From a virus: 64,000 bases of DNA. The notes under the pieces are model-generated. The model was not told where the DNA came from. It made no database searches and was given only the letters and a program-made list of their open reading frames with translations. Below, in pieces: positions 13,551 through 62,599 of the stretch. The translations under genes were made by a program, and so were the position numbers. The stretch covers positions 45,753-109,752 of IMG/VR virus record IMGVR_UViG_3300032753_000007, one strand, 5' to 3'. The first letter of the stretch is position 1; every line of letters starts with the position of its first letter.

Positions 13551-13813
13551 AAGAAGAGTATAAAATTAAATTATTAGCATTAGTAAAGTTAATAAAAAAA
13601 CGTTTATGTAAATTAGTAGGCTGTAATTTTTCATTAGTTGATGAAGTCACTGTAAACGCTATTAGTAAACACCAATCTTATACTAAATTTACATTAAGCT
13701 GTAAACGCTGTAAAGGTGATATGATGATTGGTATGCTAGTGCCTATTACTGAAATAGAGTTAGAAGATGCTATTTTATTAGAAAAATTTAAAAAGGGGTT
13801 AATTGTAAAATGA
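13547..13813 (+). CDS. Small Cys-rich protein between RNA polymerase subunits
   Basis: 88 residues, translationally coupled on both sides: its ATG overlaps the beta-prime stop and its stop overlaps the beta start. It has a basic N-terminal helix (IKKRLCKL) and four cysteines arranged as C-x4-C near residues 21-26 and CKRC near 54-57, which could form a zinc ribbon. Its position inside the polymerase operon suggests a role linked to the polymerase or to its packaging. No family is recognised and the zinc site is inferred from cysteine spacing only. Confidence 0.7.
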   Translation: MKEEYKIKLLALVKLIKKRLCKLVGCNFSLVDEVTVNAISKHQSYTKFTLSCKRCKGDMMIGMLVPITEIELEDAILLEKFKKGLIVK

Positions 13814-16800
13814 CACTATTATCTACAGATGCTTTTACAACACAATTTGTTACACGACAATTAAATAAACTCAGCACTGTATCTCGTTTACGATCAGTTG
13901 ATGATTTTGAATTACCTGAAAATGCGATTATTCATTATGTTAGTGATAGCGATCAGGTATTAGGCATTACTAAATCTAACGATATGATTAGAAGTACTAG
14001 CGATGTTTATACTTATCACGTTGATGCATTAGAGGGTAAAGAAGGCCATTATAGTAAATCAGAAACTACACTAAATGCTTTAATTACAAAATACCATCAG
14101 TTTAATTTAGGTATTAAACGCATTAATAATCTGTCAAGTGTATTAGAAAAAGTTAAACAGCCTATTGTAGTTAACTATAGCATGTTACCTTCTTTATACA
14201 AATATACTGTTTCTTCATTATCAGTCTATTACGAGTGGTTAAATATACGGACTACTATTTGGCACCATATTAAAGAAATAGGCAGCGATAAGCTTCATTT
14301 TATAGTTTATAAAATACCTGAAGTATTAATTACTAAAAATGATTTAAACAAATATGCCCATAATTTTAAACCTGATGCGTTAGAATTATTTACTGATATT
14401 AATAATTTAAACCTATTAGAGCTATGGCGAATGTTAGGCGAAAATAATACTACATTAGAAAGTGAAATGGATGAATTACTTTTAAGTAAAGTACATATCG
14501 TATTTATTGAAAGTAGACATATCGGTATTTTTACATTAAAGTCTTTTATTGATTGGGGTAAAAGCGATGGCTCTAAAGCTAAGATAGAGTTTTATAATTT
14601 CTTAGATAATTTAATTGCTAAACGCTCTAACTTAGAATCTGAAAAACTAATTAAAGAAGCAGGTGAAGAGCCTGAACAAGGTGAAATTAATAATGATAAA
14701 ATTCATCAATTAATTAATGAAAAAGCAGAAAACGGCTTATTATCTACTAATGAAAAGAAAGCTTTATTAAAACTATCTGAAAAACATAAAACAGTAATAG
14801 ACCCTGTTACTGGTTTAACGTTAGATAAAATAGCTGTTAAAAATACTGAATTAGTATTAAAGAAAAAACCACTCATTAAAGATAATAATACTATTTTTGA
14901 TAAGTCTATGCTATACAGTAGCATTAGAGATTTAGACAAGCAATATATTGAAGAAGGCTTATTACATCGGCATATGATAGAATCCGTAATGATGTTACAT
15001 CCAGCAGGTGTCATTGTTAAAGATATGCGTGTTAAAGATAAAATGACAGCCGCTACTAAAGCAACTGTATATAGTTTTTCTTTACAGCCTATTAATGGGC
15101 CTTCATCTACTATTACTTTTCCTATCCCTAAAATTAATCCAGATGGTACATTTTTAGCTGGTGGTGTTTTATATCGAATGGATAAGCAACATGGTGAAAT
15201 GCCAATTGCTAAAATTAAACACGATACAGTTAAATTAACTAGCTATTACGGCACTATCTTTATTAATCGATCTGAAAGTACAGTGACTAATCTATCTAAA
15301 TGGATAGTCAATGCATTAGTTAAATTGACTAAAGCAGGATCAGTTACTAATTTAGTTTATGGTATTACTACTAAATTTGATAAAAACTTACCTAGACAAT
15401 ATACAGCCATAATGAAAAGTATTAGTCGGTTTAATTATCAGACTACTGAAGTTAATTATAGCTTTTATTTTACCTATAGTAAGCTTAGTAATTTCTTTTC
15501 AGAAACAGAAATAGCTAAATTTGCTAATAGTAAGTTAGTAGGTTGTGGTAGAAATGAAAAGACAGGTAATCTATTAGTCATGGATGAGTTAGGTGATGTA
15601 ATAGAGTTACAAGATAACTCACCACTTAACTTAGGCAAGATACAGAATATACTATCTGATACAGGTGGCCCTATTGAATATACTGAAATGGGTTTATTAA
15701 ATAGACGTATTCCAGTAATAATGGCTATGTGTTATGTACATGGATTTACTAAAATTTTATCTGAATTAAAAGTACCTCTTGTTCAACATCCAGCAGGCAC
15801 TAGAGTGCCCTATAAGCCAAAAACTTATGTATTAAAATTTAAAGATGTCGTTATTGAATTACCTTATAGAAATGTAGAAGAAGAATTACTATTCGGCGGG
15901 TTTATGCCATTTCGTAAAGATTTAATCAATTTCCGTAGTGGCGATTTAAATAAACGAACTGCTTATTCTAATTTATTAAGTGGTAATGGATTATCTACTT
16001 ATCATTTTAGAGAATTATTATTAATGTGGGATATGTACATTGATCCTATTACAGCTGCACTATTACGAGAAACTGATGCACCTACGGACATCTTTAATGT
16101 TATATTAGCAGCTAATCGTTTATTAATTAACGATGCTATGCCTGATTATACGACTGTACGGTATAAAGGCTATGAAAGACTATGTGGGTTTATGTATAAA
16201 GAGCTTATTGGTGCAGTTAAAGCACACCGTGCTAAAGGCGCTTTAAGTGATGTAGGCATTACTATTAAACCTAATGGTGTTTGGTTAAATATATTGGAAG
16301 ATCAATCTATTGTCTTAGTAGAACAAAGTAACCCTATTCATAATTTAAAAGAGCAAGAAAGCTTTACTCATGCAGGTGCTGGCGGTAAGTCCGCCATTAC
16401 TATGGTAGCTGCTACACGTGGTTTTAAAGACAGCGATTTAGGTGTTGTATCTGAAGCTACACCTGATTCTGCTAAAGTAGGTATTAGAGCTATGTTAACG
16501 CCTAATGCTAATATTGTTAATCTATTAGGTATGGTTAAACAATATGAAGAAGATAAAGATGGTATTAGTTCAGTTATATCTACAACTGCTATGTTAGCAC
16601 CAGGCATTACCCATGATGATGGAAAACGATGGAACTTTAATAATGTTCAAATGTCACATGGTGTAGCTGCGATTGGTTATCAACCGTTACCCTATCGTAC
16701 TGGTTATGAGCAAACAATTGCTAATCGTGTTAGTGATTTATTTGCTACTGTAGCTACAGGTAATGGTTTTGTTTCTGAGATTAAATCATCTGGCATTACA

Positions 16801-17760
16801 ATTACTTATGATGATGGTTCTAGTAAAACGTATTTCTTAGGTGTTAAACACGGCATTGTATCGGGCAGTACTATACCACATCACATTGTAACGCATTTAA
16901 ATAAAAATGATAAAGTTATTAAAGATCAAGTCATTTGTTATAATGACGGGTTCTTTACAACAGGCGAATTAGATCCAAAAAGCATTATTTATAAACACGG
17001 CGTTATTTGTAGAATCGCATTAGCTGAAGATAGCGATACATTAGAAGACGGTTGCGTTATATCAAAAGGATTAGCTGATAAACTATTAACACCTACATCA
17101 GAAGTCTATGGCATTGTTTGTGACTTTAGTATGGCAATACATAATTTAGTTACTATTGGACAACGCGTTACACCTGAAACTATTTTGTGTATTCTTGAGC
17201 ATAGCTATGAAGGTGCTGCAGAAAAAGATTCTGATGCAATTTGGGCATTAAGTCAATTGAGCAATATATCGCCTAAATGTAAAGTCTATGGTACAGTCAG
17301 CGATATTGAAGTAGTTTACTTTGGTAAGCTAGAAGATATGTCACCTTCTTTAGCTGAAGTCGTTAGACACTACGATGCAATACGAAATCGTAATGTTAAA
17401 ACCTATTCTTTAAATGAAGCTAAATCAGGTGAAATCGATGAAACAATTCGTGTATCAGGTAAAAAGCTAATTAAGAATCAAGCAGCTATTAAGATATATG
17501 TGGATTATATTTTAGATATGGGTGATGGCGATAAGATCGTTATAGGCCATCCATTAAAAACAACCATTAGTCGAGTAGACATTAATCCTATGACAACTGA
17601 CGATGGTGTTGAAGTAGATGCTTTATTTGGCGCTCAATCGGTATCAGCGCGTATTGTAAAATCTGCTGAAATATGTGGATTATCAAATGAAGTAATGTGT
17701 AAATTATCAGTAGATTTTGGTGAAATGGTTTTAAAACTTAATGAAGGAGATAACAAATGA
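13810..17760 (+). CDS. Virion RNA polymerase beta subunit, full length
   Basis: 1316 residues, near the length of bacterial beta (about 1340). Collinear landmarks include an N-terminal region with PNGTFL-type motif (NPDGTFLAGGVLYRMD near 440), the rifampicin-pocket/fork equivalent SNPIHNLKEQESFTHAGAGG near 835-855, SEATPDSAKVGI near 880 (counterpart of CPIETPEGPNIGLI), GVAAIGYQPLPYRTGYE near 955, the LEDGCVIS motif near 1079 and the GDKIVIGHPLKTTIS segment near 1241 (counterpart of the GDKMAGRHGNKG loop). Both halves are thus on one chain, whereas phiKZ-type polymerases are often described with split beta chains. Operon position beside the beta-prime/GNAT gene and the gp181-like gene indicates the virion polymerase. 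Confidence 0.95.
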   Translation: MTLLSTDAFTTQFVTRQLNKLSTVSRLRSVDDFELPENAIIHYVSDSDQVLGITKSNDMIRSTSDVYTYHVDALEGKEGHYSKSETTLNALITKYHQFNLGIKRINNLSSVLEKVKQPIVVNYSMLPSLYKYTVSSLSVYYEWLNIRTTIWHHIKEIGSDKLHFIVYKIPEVLITKNDLNKYAHNFKPDALELFTDINNLNLLELWRMLGENNTTLESEMDELLLSKVHIVFIESRHIGIFTLKSFIDWGKSDGSKAKIEFYNFLDNLIAKRSNLESEKLIKEAGEEPEQGEINNDKIHQLINEKAENGLLSTNEKKALLKLSEKHKTVIDPVTGLTLDKIAVKNTELVLKKKPLIKDNNTIFDKSMLYSSIRDLDKQYIEEGLLHRHMIESVMMLHPAGVIVKDMRVKDKMTAATKATVYSFSLQPINGPSSTITFPIPKINPDGTFLAGGVLYRMDKQHGEMPIAKIKHDTVKLTSYYGTIFINRSESTVTNLSKWIVNALVKLTKAGSVTNLVYGITTKFDKNLPRQYTAIMKSISRFNYQTTEVNYSFYFTYSKLSNFFSETEIAKFANSKLVGCGRNEKTGNLLVMDELGDVIELQDNSPLNLGKIQNILSDTGGPIEYTEMGLLNRRIPVIMAMCYVHGFTKILSELKVPLVQHPAGTRVPYKPKTYVLKFKDVVIELPYRNVEEELLFGGFMPFRKDLINFRSGDLNKRTAYSNLLSGNGLSTYHFRELLLMWDMYIDPITAALLRETDAPTDIFNVILAANRLLINDAMPDYTTVRYKGYERLCGFMYKELIGAVKAHRAKGALSDVGITIKPNGVWLNILEDQSIVLVEQSNPIHNLKEQESFTHAGAGGKSAITMVAATRGFKDSDLGVVSEATPDSAKVGIRAMLTPNANIVNLLGMVKQYEEDKDGISSVISTTAMLAPGITHDDGKRWNFNNVQMSHGVAAIGYQPLPYRTGYEQTIANRVSDLFATVATGNGFVSEIKSSGITITYDDGSSKTYFLGVKHGIVSGSTIPHHIVTHLNKNDKVIKDQVICYNDGFFTTGELDPKSIIYKHGVICRIALAEDSDTLEDGCVISKGLADKLLTPTSEVYGIVCDFSMAIHNLVTIGQRVTPETILCILEHSYEGAAEKDSDAIWALSQLSNISPKCKVYGTVSDIEVVYFGKLEDMSPSLAEVVRHYDAIRNRNVKTYSLNEAKSGEIDETIRVSGKKLIKNQAAIKIYVDYILDMGDGDKIVIGHPLKTTISRVDINPMTTDDGVEVDALFGAQSVSARIVKSAEICGLSNEVMCKLSVDFGEMVLKLNEGDNK

Positions 17761-22034: not shown

Positions 22035-22045
22035 ATAGATAATCT

Positions 22046-22075
22046 ATTACTGGATAGCATTAGCTATCCAGTAAT
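22046..22075. terminator. Terminator after prohead protease
   Basis: Perfect 13-bp stem (22046-22058 with 22063-22075), loop ATTA, followed by AT-rich sequence. Confidence 0.75.
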
Positions 22076-22092
22076 AATATTTACCGTATTTC

Positions 22093-22186
22093 ATAAATTC
22101 AAATAATTTTCATATATATATAGTTAATATGAATAAAGACAATTCCGTCTTTTCAAACGCTGCGATGAGCAGCAAGGAAAAATATT
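22093..22186 (+). promoter_or_regulatory. Conserved promoter/leader with two hairpins, copy A
   Basis: This 94-nt region is strongly similar to 45962-46057, including ATAAATTCAAA, CATATATATATA, ATATGAATAAAGACAATTCC and GCTGC-loop-GCAGC in the same order and spacing. Hairpin 1 pairs AAAGAC (22135-22140) with GTCTTT (22147-22152) around AATTCC. Hairpin 2 pairs GCTGC (22159-22163) with GCAGC (22169-22173) around GATGA. An AAGGA ribosome site directly follows hairpin 2. The TATA-rich part plus ATATG is likely the promoter; the hairpins are likely in the 5' UTR. Confidence 0.65.
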
Positions 22187-41412: not shown

Positions 41413-42414
41413 ATGCCTAAAAATACAATTCACGTTTATGCTTGCGGCGGTGCTGGAATTAACAGAGCCATTAGTATTGAACTACCCATCAATGCAGCTG
41501 GGTTTGCTACACCCCATACCACACTCATTGACACCAGTACATCAAACTTACCAAAACAACTACCCTCTAACTTTACACAATACATGATACCAGGTGTTGA
41601 TGGTGCTGGTAAGAATAGAGGATTTGCACACAATGTTTCTATTGCTCATTTAGATAAGATATTGATTGATAATAAACAAGGCGATGTCAATGTGGTTATA
41701 TTCAGCATGAGTGGTGGTAGTGGTTCAGTTATTGGCCCTATGTTAATTAAGCGGTTATTAGAGCGTGATTGCTCTGTTATCAGCTTAGGAATCGCTAACT
41801 TAACCAGTGCTGTTGAAGCTAACAATACGCGCTCCACGCTGCTAACATTATCAAATGTCAGTAGCAATGTAACTGGCGTACCATTGGTTTGTGGTATGTA
41901 TGAAAATACAAGTATGACACCACGCAGTGCAGTAGATGCTAAAATCGATAATGATTTAAGAGCTATCGCGATGTTATGTAGCGGTGAAAATATTGCATTA
42001 GATAAAATGGATATTTATAACTGGCTACATTTTAACAAAATTACGTCAGTGCCTTCACAATTGGTAGAGCTACACATTGATGTAGTCACCATAGAAAATG
42101 AACCCCATTATTCACCTGAGTACGCGAATGTAATTAGCACTGCATCGGTATTGCATTCTCAAGACTTAATTGAGCCTGCTTTAAATCAGGCTTATGGTTG
42201 CGTCGGTTATTTATCGCCTGCTACATTAGAAGCCTCTGATTCTTCTAAACCGTCACTACACTTCATTTTATCTAATGCTAATTTAGTATCACGATTAGAA
42301 AACTATGAAGCTATATTAAAATCGTTTAAAGAAAAAGAAGCAGCGACTGCAGCTGTTAAACTAATTGATGTACCTGTTATAATTGGAGCTGATAAAGACG
42401 GCTTTATTATATAA
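41413..42414 (+). CDS. phuZ: PhuZ-type phage tubulin/FtsZ homologue
   Basis: 333 residues, close to the 315 of characterised PhuZ. The N-terminal nucleotide-contact loop reads ACGGAGINRA (residues 10-19), and the tubulin signature loop, which binds GTP phosphates, is MSGGSGSVIGP with GGSGS at 101-105. A hydrophobic VNVVIFSM strand precedes it, as in FtsZ/tubulin. The C-terminus ends in a short acidic/hydrophobic tail (IIGADKDGFII), as used by PhuZ for filament contacts. PhuZ builds a bipolar spindle that centres the phage nucleus and carries capsids to it. AAGGAA ribosome site, a CTCTTTACCA element at 41382-41391 and a strong terminator right after the stop indicate high, self-contained expression. 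Confidence 0.9.
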   Translation: MPKNTIHVYACGGAGINRAISIELPINAAGFATPHTTLIDTSTSNLPKQLPSNFTQYMIPGVDGAGKNRGFAHNVSIAHLDKILIDNKQGDVNVVIFSMSGGSGSVIGPMLIKRLLERDCSVISLGIANLTSAVEANNTRSTLLTLSNVSSNVTGVPLVCGMYENTSMTPRSAVDAKIDNDLRAIAMLCSGENIALDKMDIYNWLHFNKITSVPSQLVELHIDVVTIENEPHYSPEYANVISTASVLHSQDLIEPALNQAYGCVGYLSPATLEASDSSKPSLHFILSNANLVSRLENYEAILKSFKEKEAATAAVKLIDVPVIIGADKDGFII

Positions 42415-43799: not shown

Positions 43800-45965
43800 A
43801 TGAGTGATGCTTTTGTTAAACCACCTGACCACTATCATAGAGACCTAGATATTAAAGGCAATGCTGAGCTAATAGCAGCTAAATATTTACAAGTCAAAAC
43901 AGGACAATCATTTGATGTTTGTTTAGATTTTGTTAAAAAAGAAACAAGTGATAATGGTTTATTTCCGTTAGCGCCTAAACATTTAAAAGTATTAAGAAAA
44001 GATCAAAATCAAGATAGAGTAAAAGACGTTTATAGCATTGATAAGATATTAGGTATAGCAACGCATGAGAAAGCAGCACTAACGGGTAATATGTGCGTGT
44101 ATAGCTCAAATGAAAATATACCATGTAGTACGGCTAATTATATAAATGATAAGTTAAATCTAAGAGCTTCTATTAAAGAGAAAGAAAAGATTGCTGAACA
44201 AGAAGGAAATAAACTATTAGCAATGACCTGTAACAATGGTCAAACTGCTGCAAAGCTATTAAATAACTCAGTATCAGGTGCTAGAGTATCACCTTATAAT
44301 CCCTTACATTTAAAAACAGCACATTCTTCATTAACCTCTACCACTATGTTGTCAGTTAGTTATAGTAACTCATCTACTGAAAGATTCTTATCTGGAAATA
44401 GGCATTATTATAATCTCTCAGTCACTATTGACGCTATCCTATCTGTTACATTAAATACAGATTATCGAGCCTTAGAAGCGACTGTCGTTAAGTATAGGCT
44501 ATATATACCTAATACGTCAGATGTATTTAAAAGCATTAAGCGCTGTAGTAAGTTCTATTGGAAAAATACACATTGGGATGATGAGTTAATAGATATTATT
44601 AACGGATTAACTGATTTAGAAAAATGTGCTTTTTTATATACAGGTGATTTTTTTAATCTCTCTAAACACAATCCAGACTTTGTAAGAGGTTTGTTATTTG
44701 AAGGTATACAGCCTGCTGATACAAATAGAGATATTGATTCAGATGCTATTGTAAAATCTGCTGATGCAGATATTATTGCATTATGTTCAGTATTATGTTC
44801 TGAGTTTTTAACAGGCACAATACCTGCTAAAATTAAAGCAACTAACCCAGAGCAATACAAGTACTTTGCTTGTACTATACTAGATGTTTGTAATTACATG
44901 AATAAATACAGTGATTTGTTTAGCACATTATTTGCTACTGTTAATATGCCATTAATGATTAGTGAGTTTCCTAATTCAATTAGACGCTCTGTAATGGGGT
45001 CTGATACAGATTCTAATATGTTTACTGTACAAGAATGGATAGTTTGGTTATTTGGTAAAGTTATTTTTTCTATTGAATCCACTAAAATAGCACAACTATT
45101 GTGTTACTTAGTATCTGAAGTAACCGCACATTCATTAATATCCTTATCACGCCAATTAGGCGTTAAAGATAAAGAATTATATCGATTAAAAATGAAAAGT
45201 GAATTTAGCTTTGCTATTTATGGTAGAGCAAATAAAGCTAAGCACTATGCTACATTAATGACCTCACGTGAAGGCAATGTATTCTCAACACCTAAGTTTG
45301 AAATTAAAGGTGTGGGATTAAAAGATTCTAAAATACCTAAATCTATTATAGGTCGCTTAGAAGAAGAATTTATTTATTTGTTTACTAAAATAACAAATAA
45401 CAAAGGTATTGATATTTACCTATTATTACAACGGATTGCTAACTTAGAACACTCAATTATGGAAGATTTAAATAAAGGCGATATTCAGTATTTATCAATG
45501 GTTAAAATAGCTAATAAAGAAGCTTATAAAAAACCAATGGCTAGTAAGTACATGCATTATGACTTATGGCAAAATGTTTATGAAAAAAAGTTTGGATCAG
45601 TAGGCGCGCCGCCTTATCAATGCGTTAAAATATCTACTACATTAATTAATAAAACCAGTATAGAAAAATGGATAGCTGCATCAGATAGTAGCTATAGAAA
45701 TGAATTAGAAGAGTGGTTAATTAGAAATAATAAGACATCATTAAAGATGTTATTAGTGCCATTAGAGTTGTTTAAAACAGGATTGCCTAAAGAGTTTTCT
45801 GACTTGATTGATAAACGTAAAATTATAAGTGAGTTAATTTCAGGCTATTATACATTATTAGAAATCATAGGGTTTTATGTACGTAATGAATCCACATCAA
45901 TTCTATTAATGGATGATATAGAATATAGACCAGAATATGGATTACCAGGTGATGAATTAAAATAA
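43800..45965 (+). CDS. DNA polymerase family B, C-terminal (palm motif B/C) subunit
   Basis: 721 residues. Motif B is visible as KLLNNSVSGA at 152-161 (family B consensus K-x3-NSxYG), and motif C as GSDTDS with the two metal-binding aspartates at 402 and 404. Motif A (DxxSLYP) and the 3'-5' exonuclease motifs are not found upstream of motif B, so they must be on a separate polypeptide; split family B polymerases are known in phiKZ-like phages. The region after motif C would hold the thumb. The gene stands alone behind a terminator and its stop coincides with the start of a conserved leader (45962). A 15-codon stretch near residue 560 recurs in the next gene. Confidence 0.7.
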   Translation: MSDAFVKPPDHYHRDLDIKGNAELIAAKYLQVKTGQSFDVCLDFVKKETSDNGLFPLAPKHLKVLRKDQNQDRVKDVYSIDKILGIATHEKAALTGNMCVYSSNENIPCSTANYINDKLNLRASIKEKEKIAEQEGNKLLAMTCNNGQTAAKLLNNSVSGARVSPYNPLHLKTAHSSLTSTTMLSVSYSNSSTERFLSGNRHYYNLSVTIDAILSVTLNTDYRALEATVVKYRLYIPNTSDVFKSIKRCSKFYWKNTHWDDELIDIINGLTDLEKCAFLYTGDFFNLSKHNPDFVRGLLFEGIQPADTNRDIDSDAIVKSADADIIALCSVLCSEFLTGTIPAKIKATNPEQYKYFACTILDVCNYMNKYSDLFSTLFATVNMPLMISEFPNSIRRSVMGSDTDSNMFTVQEWIVWLFGKVIFSIESTKIAQLLCYLVSEVTAHSLISLSRQLGVKDKELYRLKMKSEFSFAIYGRANKAKHYATLMTSREGNVFSTPKFEIKGVGLKDSKIPKSIIGRLEEEFIYLFTKITNNKGIDIYLLLQRIANLEHSIMEDLNKGDIQYLSMVKIANKEAYKKPMASKYMHYDLWQNVYEKKFGSVGAPPYQCVKISTTLINKTSIEKWIAASDSSYRNELEEWLIRNNKTSLKMLLVPLELFKTGLPKEFSDLIDKRKIISELISGYYTLLEIIGFYVRNESTSILLMDDIEYRPEYGLPGDELK

Positions 45966-46057
45966 ATTCAAACTTTTTTTCATATATATATAATTTATAT
46001 GAATAAAGACAATTCCGTCCTTACATTAACGCTGCAATGAGCAGCAGGAGCTTTACA
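45962..46057 (+). promoter_or_regulatory. Conserved promoter/leader with two hairpins, copy B
   Basis: Second copy of the leader at 22093-22186, beginning at the stop codon of the polymerase gene. Hairpin 1: AAAGAC (46005-46010), loop AATTCC, GTCCTT with one mismatch. Hairpin 2: GCTGC (46031-46035), loop AATGA, GCAGC (46041-46045), followed by AGGAG. Distance from ATAAATTCAAA to the ATG is 96 nt here and 94 nt in copy A. Confidence 0.65.
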
Positions 46058-46458: not shown

Positions 46459-46498
46459 TACCACTATAGAGTTTAAACTCTATAGTGGTATTTTTTTT
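46459..46498. terminator. Strong bidirectional terminator
   Basis: 32-nt perfect palindrome (46459-46490) followed by eight T residues; the leftward gene stop at 46497 lies in the T-tract. Confidence 0.92.
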
Positions 46499-47555
46499 AT
46501 GCTTCACTTATTTTTTTTCTACTTTCTTCATAACGCTTAATAAAGGTTTCTCTTAATGCAGTAGGCATTCTTGTTAATGAATCAGTAGAATAAATAAATC
46601 TATCTACTCGTAATAATAAATTATGAATATTAGTAGTCGTTTGATTACCATTAGCTACAATAGCTGCTAAATAAAACCAATCAACATAAACTAATAACAA
46701 TAACCAATAACTGTACATACTCAATTCATTTATTTCATATGGTAATCTAGTCATTACATTATCACTAAACAATAAAGGTATTTGTTCTAATGTATTATAG
46801 TAGGGCAATCGCCTTGTTCTTAACTTAACTAATAGATGAGTTAATTCATGATCTATTGTTTCTTCAATACTTTTAATATTTTGTCTTTCTCGTTTAGTAG
46901 GATCAGGAATATCTTCACCTAATGCTAAGTGTATGATTCTATTTCTTAAAGCAATATCTATTTGTTCAGGCATCATACCAGGCAGCACATATTGCCCTAT
47001 AAACTCCGATAATGATTCATGTGTTAGCTCCGCATTGGTATCTTGTTCATGTAGCCATCCTCGCAATTGTCGTGCCAATTTAAATAGATCTATACCAATA
47101 GCTGAAAATCTATTATCTATAATATCATTACCGAGTGGAGGCAAGAATATTTCCATTGTGGTAAAGGGATGATTTAAACATCTAACAGGTCTTTCATTAC
47201 GCCAATCTAATTGCTTATCTGTAAATGTAGTAGATAAGACAGCACAGTTAGTCGTATAGAAGAGTTTTGTATAAATCATACCCTTTGTAAAGCTAGAGGT
47301 AATTCGTGCTGCAGAACAGATTTTTGTATGGTTATCTTCAATTAAACGATGTAGGTCTGTCTTAATAGTAACATAATCCATTAAGGTGTATAATACTTTA
47401 ATAAGTAAGTGATTTGAATTTATATACTTTGGATGTGTGGTTAAGAAGTATAAGTAATAATCATAATAGCCTTTATATACATTTCTTAATCGTAGTATAT
47501 TAGGTACATCAATCTCACCTCTATTACTAAGGTGATGTGTAAACAATCTAAACAT
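46497..47555 (-). CDS. Unknown protein with HELTH (HExxH) motif (352 aa)
   Basis: 352 residues, leftward, GGAG ribosome site before ATG. A zinc-metallopeptidase-like motif ETIDHELTHLL occurs with His236, Glu237 and His240. Further downstream lie SMYSYWLLLLVYVDWFYLAA, a hydrophobic segment, and a basic C-terminus. A third metal ligand is not evident. It may be a structural protein in which HExxH is fortuitous, or a metalloprotease. Leftward orientation is shared with structural genes of the window. Confidence 0.6.
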   Translation of the reverse strand: MFRLFTHHLSNRGEIDVPNILRLRNVYKGYYDYYLYFLTTHPKYINSNHLLIKVLYTLMDYVTIKTDLHRLIEDNHTKICSAARITSSFTKGMIYTKLFYTTNCAVLSTTFTDKQLDWRNERPVRCLNHPFTTMEIFLPPLGNDIIDNRFSAIGIDLFKLARQLRGWLHEQDTNAELTHESLSEFIGQYVLPGMMPEQIDIALRNRIIHLALGEDIPDPTKRERQNIKSIEETIDHELTHLLVKLRTRRLPYYNTLEQIPLLFSDNVMTRLPYEINELSMYSYWLLLLVYVDWFYLAAIVANGNQTTTNIHNLLLRVDRFIYSTDSLTRMPTALRETFIKRYEESRKKISEA

Positions 47556-47848: not shown

Positions 47849-48163
47849 ATGTTAAAACGCATAGTGCTTTACTTTCTATTACTAGTGGTATCACTTAATC
47901 TATTTGCTGCTACTTTAGCTGAATGTGATGTAATGTTAAAGCACTATGCTAAAGTCAGAAACAATAGTAATCCAAGTATTAGGAGTAAAGCCAATCTAAT
48001 ACATGATAAAATATTTAAAGAATGCATCATACCACAAGGATATGATACGGATACATTGATGTATCATTTAACTCACGATAAACCACTAGAAATAACACCT
48101 ACCAAACCTAAAGGAAAACATAATGAAAAAACCAAAAAGATACCCAATGCTAGACGACGATAA
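47849..48163 (+). CDS. Small secreted protein (104 aa)
   Basis: 104 residues starting with a clear signal peptide (MLKRIVLYFLLLVVSLNLFA, cleavage near AATLA). The mature part has two cysteines (AECDVML and FKECIIP) that could form a disulphide, and a strongly basic C-terminal tail (KPKGKHNEKTKKIPNARRR). A periplasmic protein is predicted. AGGA ribosome site; the 3' end overlaps the next gene by 41 nt. Possible envelope-stage role; no homologue recognised. Confidence 0.6.
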   Translation: MLKRIVLYFLLLVVSLNLFAATLAECDVMLKHYAKVRNNSNPSIRSKANLIHDKIFKECIIPQGYDTDTLMYHLTHDKPLEITPTKPKGKHNEKTKKIPNARRR

Positions 48164-48566
48164 TAACAGTGATGCTGCTGTTATAATGGCTATGCCAGAC
48201 ACACCACTACCAGAAGACGATGACACAGTACCATTTCTTATTAAAGGCGATGAGCCTACTGAAGAAGTTAAACCACAGATAACAATGGATGTATTACCAC
48301 CAGAAGTACAAGCATTCATAAAAGAACAAATAATAGCAGCAGTAGCACAAAGTACTGCTGCTATGTTAAGTGCTCAACCAATACTTAGTGATATTAAGGA
48401 TCAGTTAGATCATATTAATGAAGCTAGTAAAGTTGTCATAGAATCAAATAAAGTAGAAGAAATAACTACTAAAGAGGAAGATCCATATGCTGAGTTATGC
48501 TCACTAGATAGATTTATTATGGAATCAACAGAACATATTAGATTAGAACAACGTAATCATTGGTAA
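48123..48566 (+). CDS. Acidic, partly disordered protein (147 aa)
   Basis: 147 residues with AAAGGAAA upstream of the ATG, starting inside the preceding gene. N-terminal half is Asp/Glu/Pro-rich (LPEDDDTVPFLIKGDEPTEE), followed by a helical region (VQAFIKEQIIAAVAQSTAAM) likely to oligomerise. Third gene of the unit behind promoter copy 4; ends at a terminator. Unknown function. Confidence 0.6.
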   Translation: MKKPKRYPMLDDDNNSDAAVIMAMPDTPLPEDDDTVPFLIKGDEPTEEVKPQITMDVLPPEVQAFIKEQIIAAVAQSTAAMLSAQPILSDIKDQLDHINEASKVVIESNKVEEITTKEEDPYAELCSLDRFIMESTEHIRLEQRNHW

Positions 48567-48571
48567 AATTA

Positions 48572-48606
48572 CTATCTACTACATCACAGAGTGATGTAGT
48601 AGATAG
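48572..48606. terminator. Terminator hairpin
   Basis: Perfect 15-bp stem (48572-48586 with 48592-48606), loop CAGAG. Confidence 0.8.
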
Positions 48607-48687
48607 ATTACTTCTAGTACTATTATTTTTTTAATATATTAGATATGTATTTTATTTATTACATATAAAAACATATATTATAGAGAG

Positions 48688-48858
48688 GTAAGGGGGGGAT
48701 ACCCCTTACACCAACAGTAAAATATATATTCTAATACAACGTAGTTGTATTAGAATATATATTGCTTTAGATAACATAGACATCGTAGATGTCTATTCCT
48801 CATAACTTAATTAATAATAGTAATATCACTTGAGTAGTAGTAGCTATGCTACTACTAC
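48688..48858. other. Cluster of four perfect hairpins in a non-coding region
   Basis: Hairpin 1: GTAAGGGG (48688-48695) with CCCCTTAC (48702-48709), including a run of seven G. Hairpin 2: 20-bp stem (48721-48740 with 48744-48763), loop GTA. Hairpin 3: 8-bp stem (48777-48784 with 48788-48795), loop GTA. Hairpin 4: 11-bp stem (48834-48844 with 48848-48858), loop TAT. There is no reading frame of note. The density of perfect inverted repeats suggests a structured RNA or a replication/processing site rather than a single terminator. Confidence 0.6.
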
Positions 48859-49071
48859 GAGAGAATACATTGAATAATAGTACTGTTATTATACAGTAGA
48901 TGAGTAATGTGTATAGCATTGATAGATTAGTTAATTCATTAATAATTAAGTAGTGTGGTAATGAATAGATAGATTATTAATCAGTAGAGTAATGAAAGAG
49001 AGACTATATTACAGTACTTAAAGAGTAATCTATAGTAGAGTAATAAGAGTAATCATAGCTGTAATAAATAG
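48859..49071 (+). repeat. C-poor tract with repeated GAGTAAT
   Basis: About 210 bp almost lacking C on the top strand, with GAGTAAT at about 48902, 48987, 49022, 49038 and 49047 and related variants. No gene is visible. It leads into promoter copy 5 and a G-rich-strand gene. Confidence 0.5.
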
Positions 49072-49105
49072 AAATAATTATAAACAGATATTATTAATGA
49101 GAGTA
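49072..49105 (+). promoter_or_regulatory. Putative early promoter, repeat family copy 5
   Basis: AAATAATTATAAA then ATATTATTAATGAGAGTA follow the same layout as 20175-20209, one base shorter. It ends 21 nt before the ATG at 49127. Confidence 0.5.
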
Positions 49106-49126
49106 GATAGTTATTGGAGATAAGTA

Positions 49127-49747
49127 ATGAATGAAATGAGATGTATTCCTGTTAAAGATATGGAAAGGATTGTATCGGGCAAATATAAAGGGAATTTAGG
49201 GTATAGTAATAGAGTGAGTAGTATTACGTTAGAAAAGCATATCGACTATGATGGTAGAGTAGAGGTGAGTACATTTAAGGTGGATGTTAATGCTAAAGAT
49301 ACTACGAGTGATGCTAGGTATGAGATAACGAGTGATGGTGAAACACATTTAGAAATAGTATCTAAAGTGAATTTAGTGGTGCCTTATGCAATCTATGAGG
49401 GTAAAAAAGGCTGTAATAAGGTGGTGTTAGAAACAATGGGTAAAGCAACGGCTATAATAACACACGATGTTATTATAGCGAAACAAGATAAGGTAGTGGG
49501 TGATGGGGTTCGTAAGGTCTATAAAAAAGGTGAAAATGAGGTATTAATAAATACCTATATACATCCTGGTATGCCTGTTATATTTCATCATGATAATCCT
49601 TTTTTAGAGGTAGTAAAGAGTACGTTTTATAGTGACTTAGTTAAAAGGTATGTAAATATAGAGCCTATTGGTGTGAGTTATACCATGGGGTTAGATTACT
49701 TTATAAATAAGCTTAGAGAGTACATTGATAGGGAGAATAATAAATGA
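49127..49747 (+). CDS. Unknown protein with unusual strand composition (206 aa)
   Basis: 206 residues, GGAG ribosome site. Beta-rich with charged turns (RVSSITLEKHIDYDGRVEVS). The sense strand is strikingly rich in G and poor in C, unlike adjacent rightward genes, and continues the C-poor tract upstream. That may reflect transfer or strand-specific mutation near an origin. No family recognised. Confidence 0.6.
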   Translation: MNEMRCIPVKDMERIVSGKYKGNLGYSNRVSSITLEKHIDYDGRVEVSTFKVDVNAKDTTSDARYEITSDGETHLEIVSKVNLVVPYAIYEGKKGCNKVVLETMGKATAIITHDVIIAKQDKVVGDGVRKVYKKGENEVLINTYIHPGMPVIFHHDNPFLEVVKSTFYSDLVKRYVNIEPIGVSYTMGLDYFINKLREYIDRENNK

Positions 49748-49774
49748 CATGTAACCCTTTTATTAAAAGCTAAT

Positions 49775-50338
49775 ATGAGAGTAAAATCAATTACACTAGA
49801 AGGTGAAATTACACCTAATAGCAAAGGCAGTACTCATGTAGCTATTAGTTTTAATAATGATAGCTTAATCTATAAAGTACTGTATAACGCCTTATACAAA
49901 ATAAATGAGGATTTAATTGTAATAATTATAACTAATCCTGAATTACAACAATTTGGAATTATTTATTCACTATCAACTAAAAAAATCAAAGATTATAGTC
50001 CATTAACAGCAATTGCTGCAAGTGCTTTAGGCAACTACAATAAAGCATTAAACGAGTATTTGGATAACCTATGGGGTAATTGCGTAGATGAAAAACTAAT
50101 TAGACGTTGTTACTTTAATATTAGAATATGTGAGCGTGATTTATTTAAACTAGAATTAAGTAAATTTTTAGTTGAAAATGATTACTTAATAAATAGCATA
50201 ATGAATATTGTAAATGTAGTGCCAGTAAAAGAGATGGATTGGTGGTTTAGAGATGACATAGTAGTGGATAAAGATGTAGTAGATGATGTAAAAGCATTAA
50301 ACGAGTATTTGGATAACAAAGAGCAAGAGGATAACTAA
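49775..50338 (+). CDS. Unknown protein with internal 27-nt direct repeat (187 aa)
   Basis: 187 residues, weak ribosome site. The nine-residue sequence KALNEYLDN occurs twice, near residues 90-98 and 173-181, encoded by identical 27-nt stretches at 50042-50068 and 50291-50317. The second copy forms the acidic C-terminus. The stop overlaps the next start (TAATG). Unknown function. Confidence 0.6.
   Translation: MRVKSITLEGEITPNSKGSTHVAISFNNDSLIYKVLYNALYKINEDLIVIIITNPELQQFGIIYSLSTKKIKDYSPLTAIAASALGNYNKALNEYLDNLWGNCVDEKLIRRCYFNIRICERDLFKLELSKFLVENDYLINSIMNIVNVVPVKEMDWWFRDDIVVDKDVVDDVKALNEYLDNKEQEDN
50042..50068 (+). repeat. 27-nt direct repeat, copy 1
   Basis: Exactly identical to 50291-50317, in frame, 249 nt apart inside one gene. 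Confidence 0.85.
50291..50317 (+). repeat. 27-nt direct repeat, copy 2
   Basis: Exact second copy of 50042-50068; encodes KALNEYLDN again near the C-terminus. Confidence 0.85.
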
Positions 50339-51009
50339 TGATAAGTTTTAATGAAATACAGGAAAATATTAAAGATGAAATACATAAAGACATTATAAAT
50401 GACACGAGTACTAATGGTAAAGATGTGGTACAAGGTGATTTGTTTGATGTATTTGTACCTGAGTATTATAGTGAGGCTGTGTTAACCTCTGCTTTTATGT
50501 TAGCAATTTCATATGTTAAAAAAACTAAATTAATTACAGCAGCTACTGAAAGTTTTATTTTTCGTGGGTGGCAGTTAGCTGACAATAAAGAAGCATATAG
50601 ATTAAAAGATGATAAACACTTTACACCACTAATCTATTCAAATACATTAGCATTAAATAATGCATTTGAACTAACATTAAAGTATTATAACTTTAAACTC
50701 TTTAGTGCATTACACAGTGGTCAACATCGTCATGCAAAAGTGTTTTATAGGTCATCATCTATTAGTTATTATAGCTTATCTAATTTCAATACAGATGAAT
50801 TAAATGGCTTATGGTTGGGTGTGGTGCTGCGATATATTTATGACATTTATGTTAAAGAATTAAAAGCTATTGGAAGTGTTAAAATCTTAAAGAGTAGGCC
50901 ATCTGATTTATGGATTAACTTGTTAGACACAGAAGTACTCCATTATGATGGTAAATACTATACTGATCCTTTGTATAAAATACTCGCATTGCCATTAGCA
51001 TCACAATAA
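50338..51009 (+). CDS. Unknown protein (223 aa)
   Basis: 223 residues, coupled to the previous gene through TAATG. Helical, with a DVFVPEYYSEAVLTSAFMLA segment and no catalytic motif. It is the last gene before the leader of the chimallin candidate. A nonstructural role is suggested by company with small early-type genes, but is not proven. Confidence 0.6.
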   Translation: MISFNEIQENIKDEIHKDIINDTSTNGKDVVQGDLFDVFVPEYYSEAVLTSAFMLAISYVKKTKLITAATESFIFRGWQLADNKEAYRLKDDKHFTPLIYSNTLALNNAFELTLKYYNFKLFSALHSGQHRHAKVFYRSSSISYYSLSNFNTDELNGLWLGVVLRYIYDIYVKELKAIGSVKILKSRPSDLWINLLDTEVLHYDGKYYTDPLYKILALPLASQ

Positions 51010-51026: not shown

Positions 51027-51050
51027 ATATATTATTTACATGTAGTATAT
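51027..51050 (+). promoter_or_regulatory. Putative promoter ahead of the chimallin candidate
   Basis: 22/24 identical to 38287-38310 (ATATATTATTTACATG then AGTATA). It lies 142 nt upstream of the 663-aa gene and its core resembles the ATATATTATTACTATG of the other putative early promoters. Confidence 0.6.
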
Positions 51051-51083
51051 GCTAACGTTTAACGATTAATGAGGATTTAAAAA

Positions 51084-51149
51084 ATGTAATTAAAAACATT
51101 GAGTAATATCATATGTGATAACACGCACGACATAGCCATCTATGTCGTG
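51084..51149 (+). promoter_or_regulatory. Start-stop minimal ORF and hairpin in leader
   Basis: AGGA at 51072-51075 is spaced 8 nt before ATGTAA (51084-51089), a start codon followed directly by a stop. Downstream, CACGACATAG (51126-51135) pairs with CTATGTCGTG (51140-51149), loop CCAT, followed by TTTTAC. This looks like a translated or ribosome-binding leader plus an attenuator-like hairpin before the gene at 51192. Confidence 0.45.
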
Positions 51150-51191
51150 TTTTACAATCTAACCTTTACCATTAAAAAAAAGGAATAAAAC

Positions 51192-53183
51192 ATGTCAAAT
51201 ACTTATTTTGATGAAGACGATATCTCTAGCTACAAAGCCAATAGAAATACTGCACAACAAGCACAACCACAACAACAAAGACAAGCACCACCGACTGGTA
51301 ATGCTCAAAAGACATTTAACTTTAGAGATTTAAGAGGTGCTGTATTAGCACACATTGGTACCAGTAAAGATGGTAAAACCGCACTGACTACAATGCAACA
51401 AATTACTGAGCAGTTTGTTGCACAAAACGTAGAGCGTCCAGTATCTAAGTTTCTGTTAATTGAAGATCCACAATTATCAGTGACTGCACTCGTAGCGTAC
51501 TTCACACCAGCGAGTACAATTTGCTACTATATGGTTTACTTGTTAGCTGCTAGTGCTCAACCGCCTAGCAACAAAATGATACAAATCCACAATGGCACTA
51601 AAACCATTGAAAAGGATTTTCCAGTGTCCGATTACTTTAATGAGAAAATGCGGGCTGTTGTAGAACATACTCTGAAAACCACACTACAACACAGTGGTGT
51701 TAGTTTTATGGGCATTAGTAACTATGGCATTACTGTTATTCCAAAAGAAGTTAACTTGGAAGACATTAGTGCATTAGCACCATTCTATATTCACATGGTT
51801 TCATCACTGTCAGCTGCTATTTCTATTGGTGGTGGCATTAGTACCTCTAGCTTAACATGTGATAGGTTGCGAATCGAAAACAGAAAGCTTGTAGCACAGT
51901 TTGTATTGACACCAGGTGCTACTTATAGAAGCAGTATTGGACAACCAATGGCAGGTGACTTTACAGTAACAACCAGTTCTGTACCTGTTAATACACGTCA
52001 ATACAGCGATATGATTCATAGTAAACAAGATGAATCTGTTATCACTCATTTAGTGGGATACCTTGATTTTATTAGGATTCCACAACAAAGGCATTTACCA
52101 CAATATGGTGTGCCACAAAATTACTATGAGCCAGGTTATAATCCTGTCATTGTTATTACTGAATTATCGTCATTTGGTAAAACAGCAGTGCCTATTGATA
52201 GTTTGTTAACATTCTTGTTAGCATTGCCATCTGTTATTCCATTGGTTACCGCTGAACAGAAATGGACGCAATTGTTTGCGCCTAATATTGGCACTACAAA
52301 TAAGGCAACACTAGGCGCATTGTCGCTTGAACATAACCTAGAGCCTGGTAAACCCTTTCAGCCTAAAATCACTGAATTGTACCCTGATACTGGTGTATAT
52401 AATCCAGAGATTACAACTATTTCTGAATTTGCTAGAGCTTTTGTCTCTACTACTCCCGTGATTGTCTTAGACATTCTTAACGGTGGCCCATTAATGGGCA
52501 TTTACTATTATATCGTATTTGCCAAACCAGGCACCGAATGCGAACGCATTATATTGCGCGAGCTAGATTCATTCTTTGCTATCACACAAGCAGATGGTAG
52601 CGTTGTAAACGATGTGTTTACTCGACTATGGCAAGCTGCAGGTAGCCCTTGTATCATTGCTCAAAATAGAAATACAAAGGTTCCTGATGAACCTACCATT
52701 ATTCATGCGGCTACTGTTATTACAGGCGATAAATCATTTGGTGATGCAAGTGAAAGCATTCTTGATATTCGTAGCTGTGATTACCTATCAGTACTGGAAA
52801 GAAGCAATGGTAATAAAGAAGTCATTGATGCATATAGCTGTGGCTATGTGCCAGGTACTTACAGCGATGAAGAGTTGGACATGAAACGAAATATCTTGAA
52901 AAATATGTTTGCCAATTTGAACATTACTGGTAAAATTACCAGAGTACACTTAAACAACGCTTTCATTTCAGTGATTGAAGAAGCGTTGAAAGTAGCCAAC
53001 ATCATTTATCAAGTAGAAGGTCTACAAGACTCAATGGCATTTAGTAATGAACGCCATTACTTTGATCCAGATAGCGTAAACGTACCGTTGAAAACACACG
53101 GCGCGTTTAACGCTTGGGCAAACAACCCCAATACTCCTCCTACTGGATTTAACAATCCGTTTATGAACTCGATGTACAGATAA
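51192..53183 (+). CDS. Candidate chimallin (phage nucleus shell protein), 663 aa
   Basis: 663 residues; known chimallins have about 600-630. Residues 1-40 are disordered and Gln/Pro-rich, a folded alpha/beta body spans about 41-600, and the last 60 residues form a flexible tail ending NNPFMNSMYR; chimallin also joins subunits through flexible N- and C-terminal segments. It directly precedes the second RNA polymerase beta-prime gene. It is a single-gene unit with promoter-like repeat, long leader, strong AAAAGGA site and strong terminator, and uses C-richer codons than neighbours, all fitting very high expression. A P-loop-like GTSKDGKT at 56-63 is an alternative lead to an ATPase. I cannot confirm chimallin without comparison; another abundant protein remains possible. 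Confidence 0.5.
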   Translation: MSNTYFDEDDISSYKANRNTAQQAQPQQQRQAPPTGNAQKTFNFRDLRGAVLAHIGTSKDGKTALTTMQQITEQFVAQNVERPVSKFLLIEDPQLSVTALVAYFTPASTICYYMVYLLAASAQPPSNKMIQIHNGTKTIEKDFPVSDYFNEKMRAVVEHTLKTTLQHSGVSFMGISNYGITVIPKEVNLEDISALAPFYIHMVSSLSAAISIGGGISTSSLTCDRLRIENRKLVAQFVLTPGATYRSSIGQPMAGDFTVTTSSVPVNTRQYSDMIHSKQDESVITHLVGYLDFIRIPQQRHLPQYGVPQNYYEPGYNPVIVITELSSFGKTAVPIDSLLTFLLALPSVIPLVTAEQKWTQLFAPNIGTTNKATLGALSLEHNLEPGKPFQPKITELYPDTGVYNPEITTISEFARAFVSTTPVIVLDILNGGPLMGIYYYIVFAKPGTECERIILRELDSFFAITQADGSVVNDVFTRLWQAAGSPCIIAQNRNTKVPDEPTIIHAATVITGDKSFGDASESILDIRSCDYLSVLERSNGNKEVIDAYSCGYVPGTYSDEELDMKRNILKNMFANLNITGKITRVHLNNAFISVIEEALKVANIIYQVEGLQDSMAFSNERHYFDPDSVNVPLKTHGAFNAWANNPNTPPTGFNNPFMNSMYR

Positions 53184-53189
53184 TAGACG

Positions 53190-53233
53190 TAATAGAGGCA
53201 GGATATATCCTGCCTCTATTATTTATCTTTTTT
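53190..53233 (+). terminator. Strong terminator after chimallin candidate
   Basis: 32-nt perfect palindrome (53190-53221) followed by TTTATC and a T7 tract. Confidence 0.92.
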
Positions 53234-53251: not shown

Positions 53252-54790
53252 ATGCCAGGATATTTAGAAATAACGGATATGGATGCGTTATTTAAATTAT
53301 GTAAATCACCAATAATCATTAATGATTTGCCCAATACCACAAAAGAAGAAAGAGCTGCTTTTGATTCAGTCATTTATACGCGATTAGGTGATACAGAAAT
53401 ATTATCTAATACACCTACTTGTTCCTGTGGGGTTTTAAATGAAGGTAAAGAGTTAAATAGAATTTGTCCTAAATGTGGAACTGAAGTTCTCTATCCTAAT
53501 GAAAGTGATATTGAGTTTACTAATTGGATGCGTATTCCTGAACCATTAGATGGCTTTATAACACCAGTTGTATTTCATCGTTTACATATGGCATTAGGTG
53601 GTGGTAAGTATTCGTTATTAAATTATTTATTAGAAAGTAAATCAGAGCCCCCACCTAATGCTCAAAAAGTATTATTATCTAAAATAGCATACATTAATAA
53701 ATTAGGTTTTCCAAGAGGTTATAATAACTTCATTAGAAACTTTGATTGGTTTTTAGAAATCTATCCTACGATTAGTAATAAGAAATCCAAACATAAGCCA
53801 GATAGTTATGGTGAAATATTAAAAAAATTTAAAGACAGATTATTTCCTAAGCATTTAGCATTGCCTTCTAAAACAATGCTAATCTTAAAAGAAACACAAC
53901 TAAAATCATATGCTGATAAGAATACGATGTTAGGTGCTATTGATGGCATTAGAACATTAACATCTATCTATAAACGACGTACTAGACCTTTATCAGAATA
54001 TTTGATTGAAAAGAAAGTCGTTAGCATTTTGTTTAACTTAGCTAAATACTATAACAATACCATACGCTTATCTTTTTGTCAAAAGAAAGGCTGGTTTAGA
54101 TATCATTTAGGTTCGTCTAAAAGTCAGTTTTGTTGTAGAGCAGTTATTGTGTCGTTATCTGAACCGCATTGTGTGCGTGAAATGCATATTCCTTGGGCTC
54201 AGGGTTTAGAATTACTCAAAATTCATATATGCTCAGTCCTGTTAAGAAGAGGCTGGCACCCTATTGATATATTAGCATATATTAATAGTCATCATACCGT
54301 GTATGATAAAATGTTAGATGATATCATGAAAGAACTTATTTATGAGTCATTAAAACCAGAAGATTTAGATGATGTCAGTGGAATAGATAAATTAATGTTA
54401 GCTAAAAATCCTAACTGTACTGATGTATTTCCTGATCATGGTATGCCCTGTTACTTTCCACGTGAAGGTTTACCGGTTATATTTCAACGTAATCCTTCAC
54501 TATCACGATTAAGTGCACAAATGCTTTATATTACGCGTATAAAGACAGATGTAAATGATCATACCATTTCGTGGAGTGAGCTATTAACAAAAGGCCCTAA
54601 TGCGGATTACGATGGTGATGCTATGCACTTTTATATGGTATTAGGTAAAAAGCATTATGATGCAGCTAGATTATTAGAAACACAATTTGGCATTCATGAT
54701 AAAAGAAAATTAGGGCGCATTAGTCGTGACGCATCATTACCTGACGTAGTGGTATCAACTATTGCAAATTGGTGTAATTATGAACGATAA
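53252..54790 (+). CDS. Non-virion RNA polymerase beta-prime N-terminal subunit
   Basis: 512 residues. It has the beta-prime zinc ribbon CSCG...CPKCGTEV with Cys57, Cys59, Cys72 and Cys75, spaced as in bacterial beta-prime, then clamp segments (MRIPEPLDGFITPVVFH), a lid/rudder-like region (RKRR-type YKRRTRPLSEYL near 245), and the catalytic NADYDGD at 450-456, almost the same position as in E. coli (458-464). It ends soon after, so bridge helix and trigger loop are in another subunit. As the second beta-prime copy in the window, next to the chimallin candidate and away from the virion operon, it is best read as part of the non-virion, late-transcribing enzyme. AGGAG ribosome site. Confidence 0.93.
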   Translation: MPGYLEITDMDALFKLCKSPIIINDLPNTTKEERAAFDSVIYTRLGDTEILSNTPTCSCGVLNEGKELNRICPKCGTEVLYPNESDIEFTNWMRIPEPLDGFITPVVFHRLHMALGGGKYSLLNYLLESKSEPPPNAQKVLLSKIAYINKLGFPRGYNNFIRNFDWFLEIYPTISNKKSKHKPDSYGEILKKFKDRLFPKHLALPSKTMLILKETQLKSYADKNTMLGAIDGIRTLTSIYKRRTRPLSEYLIEKKVVSILFNLAKYYNNTIRLSFCQKKGWFRYHLGSSKSQFCCRAVIVSLSEPHCVREMHIPWAQGLELLKIHICSVLLRRGWHPIDILAYINSHHTVYDKMLDDIMKELIYESLKPEDLDDVSGIDKLMLAKNPNCTDVFPDHGMPCYFPREGLPVIFQRNPSLSRLSAQMLYITRIKTDVNDHTISWSELLTKGPNADYDGDAMHFYMVLGKKHYDAARLLETQFGIHDKRKLGRISRDASLPDVVVSTIANWCNYER

Positions 54791-60976: not shown

Positions 60977-62599
60977 ATGAGTGAACAACAAACTGAAGGA
61001 CAAGCGTACATTGATAGTTCTTTTTTAGAACCTAAATCAGTTGTTAGAAGAGCAATGCTCATTCTCATGCCACCTCAACATGAGCAGTATTTACGGCCTT
61101 ATATGTCTGGTAATTCAGCTGAAGGTTTAGACTTAGTACTTGAAGCTACAAATGGTGGTGCAAATTTATCATCTGCTGTATTTTCTAACATTGCATCTAA
61201 AGTACTAACGCCTACATGGGAGCCTAGAGCAGAATTGAAAATTCCAAATACCATGCGTAATTTACGATATGCATTCTATATTGAAATAGAAACAATGTCC
61301 GTGTATGGTCGTGAAGTAGAAATTATTAAAGGCTTTACTAATTATGATGGTGTTAGTCAAGGCGGTCATTTAGATCCTAACATGTGGTTTTATATAAACC
61401 ATAGACAATTAGTATCTCTAGAAAAGTTTAATTCGCCTCGTATAGAGCCAGCTACCATGCGTCATGATAACATGGTATTATCTAATATTGGTGGAATTGA
61501 TAATGGCGTAGTAATGCGGCCTGAAGATATTATTTATCATCAGCAATACAATCCAATGCAAACTGTTGGTTATGGTAAAGTTATTGAAGTACGTACTAAA
61601 CTCGATGGTGTTGCTAAATATGCACAACATACGCACCATATGCCAGCTGAATATTTAAGCAATATATTAAATGCTTATGTAACTGCAGTTGATCCAAATA
61701 AAGCAAGTACGCAAGATGAGTTAAAACGACAAAGTGTTGATTACTATAGCGATGCATATGCTACATTAAAAACATCAAACTTAGATAGGAGTAATTTTTA
61801 TCTAACGATGTCTAATGGCAGTGCTTTACAAAGCCATTGTTTTAATCTAGATCAGTTTAGTAAAGCATTTAACGTAGATGATAGTATTTGGGAAATTATA
61901 CAGCCCTCTAAAAAGTTACAGTATTCATTAATTGACCATACATCTACGTGGAAATCAGCATCAGTTGAAACTAATGTAGCATTTTCATTAACACATATGG
62001 TGCCTGCATTAATGGCTAAAGTGTTAATTGATAGTTTACATTTTAGTATTAATAACCTAAACTTTACAGGTGAACCCGATATTGGCATTTGGTCATTTAT
62101 GCGACATGCCACTAATAAAGCAGTTAATGAAATACAATTAGCTGATTACATTAAAGGCAGAATTAATATTGATTTAGTACGTGGCTTATTAATGCAAAAA
62201 GCATATACGTATAACATTACTGTTAAATGCGATACAATGACGAATATCAATATCGAAATGTCGTTAGATGGAAATCCAAAAGAAATTTATAATTCGCCTT
62301 TATTCTGTTCATCAAAATACAGTCCAATGATTGGTACTGATGAGCATGATTTACAATTACTCTCCAGTAGCATTGATACATTAGCAGAAAATATAATTAA
62401 TCAGCGGTATGGCTATCATACACCAATGCCTAATGAAAGATTTGATGCACCAGAGTGGTCTGGATTTGAAGCAGGTCATTTAGATAGTCTCTATCCTCGC
62501 AATGACGAGCTAGTATGTGAACAACCCTTTTCATTTATTCAACAGCATCCAAAGCCACGGGCATTAATGGATGAGCTATCTAGCTATAGACCTTTATAA
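60977..62599 (+). CDS. Unknown virion-like protein (540 aa)
   Basis: 540 residues, AGAGGAAA before the ATG, 2 nt after the previous stop. Soluble mixed alpha/beta protein starting with a short polar tail; contains IKGFTNYDGVSQGGHLDPNM and THHMPAEYLSNILNAYVTA. Style is that of phiKZ-like structural proteins; no enzyme signature. Codons are fairly C-rich, suggesting good expression. Confidence 0.65.
   Translation: MSEQQTEGQAYIDSSFLEPKSVVRRAMLILMPPQHEQYLRPYMSGNSAEGLDLVLEATNGGANLSSAVFSNIASKVLTPTWEPRAELKIPNTMRNLRYAFYIEIETMSVYGREVEIIKGFTNYDGVSQGGHLDPNMWFYINHRQLVSLEKFNSPRIEPATMRHDNMVLSNIGGIDNGVVMRPEDIIYHQQYNPMQTVGYGKVIEVRTKLDGVAKYAQHTHHMPAEYLSNILNAYVTAVDPNKASTQDELKRQSVDYYSDAYATLKTSNLDRSNFYLTMSNGSALQSHCFNLDQFSKAFNVDDSIWEIIQPSKKLQYSLIDHTSTWKSASVETNVAFSLTHMVPALMAKVLIDSLHFSINNLNFTGEPDIGIWSFMRHATNKAVNEIQLADYIKGRINIDLVRGLLMQKAYTYNITVKCDTMTNINIEMSLDGNPKEIYNSPLFCSSKYSPMIGTDEHDLQLLSSSIDTLAENIINQRYGYHTPMPNERFDAPEWSGFEAGHLDSLYPRNDELVCEQPFSFIQQHPKPRALMDELSSYRPL

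Follow-up and report, generated by a model that had tools for sequence, protein, structure and literature searches.

Chimallin is the protein that giant phages build into a nucleus-like shell around their own DNA. In the chimallins of 201phi2-1 and Goslar, an N-terminal segment (NTS) docks within the tetramer and C-terminal segments link tetramers to one another, giving a square sheet (PMC9365700). In phiKZ, gp69 has been identified as PicA, an import factor (PMC11087766), and reported early promoters of phiKZ-related phages consist of an AT-rich block, 6 nt and then a G (PMC5312081, PMC7598289). Here we analysed a 64,000-nt stretch of viral DNA (the window), which is the right-hand part of a source record of 109,752 bases, itself a genome fragment. 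An ORF of the window encoding 663 aa is almost certainly the chmA gene of a Chimalliviridae-type, nucleus-forming jumbo phage, and its product the main protein of the nuclear shell; the features of the ORF and of its surroundings are listed in Table 1.

Table 1. Features of the chmA locus, numbered from the first base of the window
Feature	Position	Strand	Basis or remark
PhuZ tubulin, upstream of chmA	41413..42414	+	third-position C 0.17
Family B DNA polymerase, phiKZ gp50 counterpart	43800..45965	+	gene-order comparison
Head protein, phiKZ gp52 counterpart, conserved upstream neighbour	46497..47555	-	gene-order comparison
Promoter-like element TATATTATTTACATG, pattern TATATTAT-N4-ATG	51028..51042	+	copies in non-coding DNA, layout
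Leader, ~150 nt	51042..51191	+	distance from predicted start G51042 to ATG; fold z-score -1.9
Strong leader hairpin, 11 pairs, 4-base loop, then TTTTAC	51125..51150	+	folding
chmA: chimallin, nuclear shell protein, 663 aa	51192..53183	+	profiles, tblastn, hhalign, predicted fold
Disordered Q/P-rich N-terminal tail, residues 1-41	51192..51314	+	model, alignment
Predicted counterpart of N-terminal docking segment NTS, residues ~42-54	51315..51353	+	alignment to 201phi2-1 gp105
N-terminal alpha-beta domain, residues ~55-219	51354..51848	+	model, alignment
P-loop-like GTSKDGKT, residues 56-63, judged a chance match	51357..51380	+	alignment, model, shuffles
C-terminal domain, residues ~220-609, counterpart of ChmA acetyltransferase-like domain	51849..53018	+	model, alignment
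Disordered C-terminal tail, residues 610-663	53019..53180	+	model, alignment
Intrinsic terminator after chmA, hairpin with 15 pairs	53189..53222	+	predicted
Non-virion RNA polymerase beta-prime subunit, phiKZ gp55 counterpart	53252..54790	+	PHROG 2987 1.6e-114; 8.9e-55
phiKZ gp69 (PicA/Imp1) counterpart, nuclear import factor	60977..62599	+	1.8e-19

The ORF product matches chimallin profiles

The original prediction, made from the sequence, was that this ORF encodes a divergent chimallin acting as the shell protein, and profile searches, profile alignment and the predicted fold agree in supporting it. Among curated profiles, the product matched PHROG 4795, 'nuclear shell protein', with an E-value of 4e-25, and it scored 49 bits against Pfam PF25677 (Chimallin_Phikzvirus), where the cut-off is 27. 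In tblastn searches of named phages, the sole matches were chimallins or their apparent unannotated counterparts, at ~20-24% identity, including those of BONAISHI (3e-7) and phiKZ (gp54, 7e-6). Aligned alone by hhalign with a set of 16 chimallins that leaves out the protein itself, the product matched over residues 58-614 (99.9%, 5.8e-33); as a control, the DNA polymerase encoded nearby gave 0.48 against the same set. Identity was below 20% to any characterised chimallin and about 20% to any named phage. A search of PDB sequences with the single product as query returned no match; searching the PDB with profile A5 reached chimallins, which A5 itself contains. Sequence profiles thus suffice to identify the product as a chimallin, and formation of a shell is what this homology would predict.

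The predicted fold and domain layout are those of chimallins

An AlphaFold2 model was built on an alignment of 32 metagenomic and known chimallins, and gave a fairly confident core (pTM 0.73). A Foldseek comparison of this model with the PDB returned nine matches below 0.001, all of them chimallins (201phi2-1, Goslar and phiPA3), the best being 7sqq (E 1.6e-25) and the next match beyond these nine standing at 0.11. TM scores reached about 0.80 against solved chimallin chains, and in a viral library 19 matches fell below 0.001, including proteins of Eowyn and phage proteins of BONAISHI length. The predicted fold is therefore that of chimallin and of no other family, although it is not independent of the chimallin assumption because the alignment behind it consisted of chimallins. 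The profiles, tblastn and hhalign are free of this circularity. Prediction from the single sequence was too poor to be informative (pLDDT 33).

Domain limits were mapped by alignment to 201phi2-1 gp105, using the limits described for that protein (PMC9365700), and correspond one to one between the two. The two-domain core of an N-terminal alpha-beta domain and an acetyltransferase-like C-terminal domain is present in the model, which rests on the chimallin alignment. A disordered N-terminus and a long flexible C-terminal tail had been anticipated, and pLDDT in the model falls below 50 at both ends, over residues 612-663 and almost throughout residues 1-56. Both tails are thus predicted to be present, disordered and alignable to docking segments; the C-terminal one carries alignable counterparts of CTS1 (~619-642) and CTS2 (~650-663), and is in part conserved with the nearest relative.

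A new clade beside the Vibrio phage chimallins

Neither viral nor genome contigs gave a relative when scanned directly with the chimallin, and viral contigs gave none with the RNA polymerase neighbour or with an alignment of Vibrio chimallins. When the DNA polymerase neighbour was used as query, one related contig was found, IMGVR_UViG_3300021142_000002, of 220,366 bases, whose DNA polymerase is 47% identical to that of the window. This contig holds a single detected chmA, encoding the nearest relative of our protein: the two are 34% identical over residues 6-654 and have stretches common to both C-terminal tails. The relative comes from an uncultured phage and differs in being without the P-loop-like signature. 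Two other observations concern this contig. A gene resembling dihydrofolate reductase, judged by eye, directly follows its DNA polymerase (L062, 12105-12668, +), and its counterpart of the RNA polymerase gene at 11454-13550 of the window (G001:C1:167815-169986, -) is matched in two stretches (L070/L071) separated by ~500 bases, the pattern that an intron or insertion would give.

In a maximum-likelihood tree, the window chimallin and that of the related contig grouped together (100/99), and this pair was sister to the chimallins of the Vibrio phages BONAISHI, pir03, sm033 and Yong MS32 (100/100; midpoint root). By sequence, the pair is a new clade, with two members, next to the chimallins of the Vibrio phages.

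chmA has its own promoter-like element, leader and terminator

The original prediction had also described chmA as a unit with its own promoter-like repeat, a long leader, a strong terminator and C-richer codons, all of which are borne out (Table 1 and below). Four exact matches to TATATTAT-N4-ATG occur in the window, all within the 6.7% that is non-coding, with one upstream of the PhuZ gene group. Allowing up to one mismatch, the + strand of non-coding DNA holds 8 copies against 0.8 expected under a Markov model, an enrichment that is descriptive because the pattern was picked after inspecting intergenic DNA; no enrichment was seen over the window as a whole. The layout of the element upstream of chmA agrees with the early-promoter layout of phiKZ-related phages given above, and we infer that the element probably serves as an early promoter for the virion RNA polymerase. 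In most other phages the region before chmA held no clear copy of the exact pattern, the best similar one being at locus L024, and a scan for sigma-70-type promoters gave matches no more frequent than in shuffles. The ~150-nt leader assumes initiation at G51042; the hairpin within it may stop transcription running in from upstream genes, or it may regulate chmA. Third-position C amounts to 0.17 in chmA, as in PhuZ, whereas most other large genes lie at about 0.07-0.11.

Elsewhere in the intergenic DNA, a second kind of promoter-like repeat, CATATATATATA..TATGAATAAAGACAATTCCGTC, was seen in two copies (22035-22186 and 45966-46036), and 560 non-coding bases at 48567-49126 are rich in AGTAGT/GAGTAAT-like runs and include several perfect hairpins.

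chmA occupies its conserved place in the genome

The gene adjoins an RNA polymerase beta-prime gene, as had been claimed, and the order along the window is DNA polymerase, head gene (-), chmA, non-virion RNA polymerase beta-prime, small genes, SbcD, gp66, gp67, gp68 and PicA. From the polymerase to PicA this is the order of phiKZ and largely that of BONAISHI, and its core recurs in most other phages compared. chmA thus lies within the block of DNA polymerase, head protein, chmA, non-virion beta-prime, SbcD, gp68 and PicA genes that we used to recognise Chimalliviridae. Between the head gene and chmA stand five small ORFs (47849-51009, +) with no confident relative in PHROGs or Pfam, while named relatives have from none to a few genes there. 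A further mark of Chimalliviridae is that they encode two multisubunit RNA polymerases; RNA polymerase subunit genes were located in the window, part of a fragmentary record, at 11454-13550, 13810-17760 and 53252-54790. The first of these (+; PHROG 2986; 698 aa) has a C-terminal extension of ~170 aa that is weakly GNAT-like (PF00583, E 0.0014, below the cut-off; PHROG 1249 acetyltransferase, 7e-4); its BONAISHI and phiKZ counterparts match only up to about residue 527 and 510, respectively.

The record falls well short of the about 230-320 kb of the named relatives compared, which leaves room for a reading in which the true shell gene lies beyond the ends of the record and the copy described here is a paralogue that serves the shell in some other way or not at all. 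We consider this very improbable: the gene occupies the chmA place of the compared phages, its third-position C is raised as in PhuZ, and a search for a second chmA across all 109,752 bases found none, the 220-kb relative likewise having one copy.

The P-loop-like motif is best taken as chance

The original prediction singled out GTSKDGKT as deserving attention. The motif is real, its eight residues fitting the Walker A pattern [AG]x4GK[ST], which would suit an enzyme or an energy-driven shell component that binds nucleotide, but it is neither conserved nor beyond chance. A functional P-loop is a scarcely credible reading, rejected here on the grounds that such a signature arises in 3% of the sequences obtained by shuffling the protein, is absent from the equivalent place in other chimallins (0/41; the nearest relative reads GNVGSGNT), and lies in the model between the disordered tail and the first helix, without the preceding strand that a P-loop needs.

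Discussion

The analyses above establish the homology of the chmA product, its predicted fold and domain layout, its gene order and that its partners are encoded on the record. By analogy with the characterised phages, the protein would also be expressed early, self-assemble, form the shell and protect the DNA. Early in infection, transcription of chmA would start at its own promoter and end just 3' of the gene; the enzyme would probably be the RNA polymerase that enters the cell with the phage DNA. By homology with the 201phi2-1 and Goslar chimallins, the NTS would dock on a neighbouring subunit to form the tetramer, and the two segments of the C-terminal tail would link tetramers into a flexible square lattice enclosing the replicating phage DNA. 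PicA and PhuZ, both encoded nearby, would serve import and positioning, respectively, as in other phages.

This protein adds a deep, uncultured branch to the known chimallins, beside that of the Vibrio phages. At ~20% identity the fold and the tails persist, the genes keep their order, and PicA and PhuZ are still encoded; knowing this helps to find nucleus-forming phages in metagenomes and to separate structural needs from lineage habits.

Compared with described systems, the window resembles BONAISHI and its kin (pir03, sm033, Yong MS32) in gene order, and their chimallins (ORF71 in BONAISHI) form its sister clade, although they are only ~18-20% identical. phiKZ gp54 belongs to the same family and holds the same place between the gp52 and gp55 counterparts, but is ~18% identical, and phiKZ has one gene (gp53) between the head gene and chmA where the window has five unmatched ones. 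With 201phi2-1 gp105 (PDB 7sqq) our protein shares its predicted fold and domain order at ~18% identity, but its C-terminal domain is ~37 residues longer. It is possible, though unlikely, that this longer domain and the tail contact other subunits of the lattice in a way not seen in the solved chimallins, in which case the geometry of the shell or its pore would differ. The protein is a divergent yet ordinary chimallin in the standard gene setting, and does not alter the current understanding of phage nucleus function.
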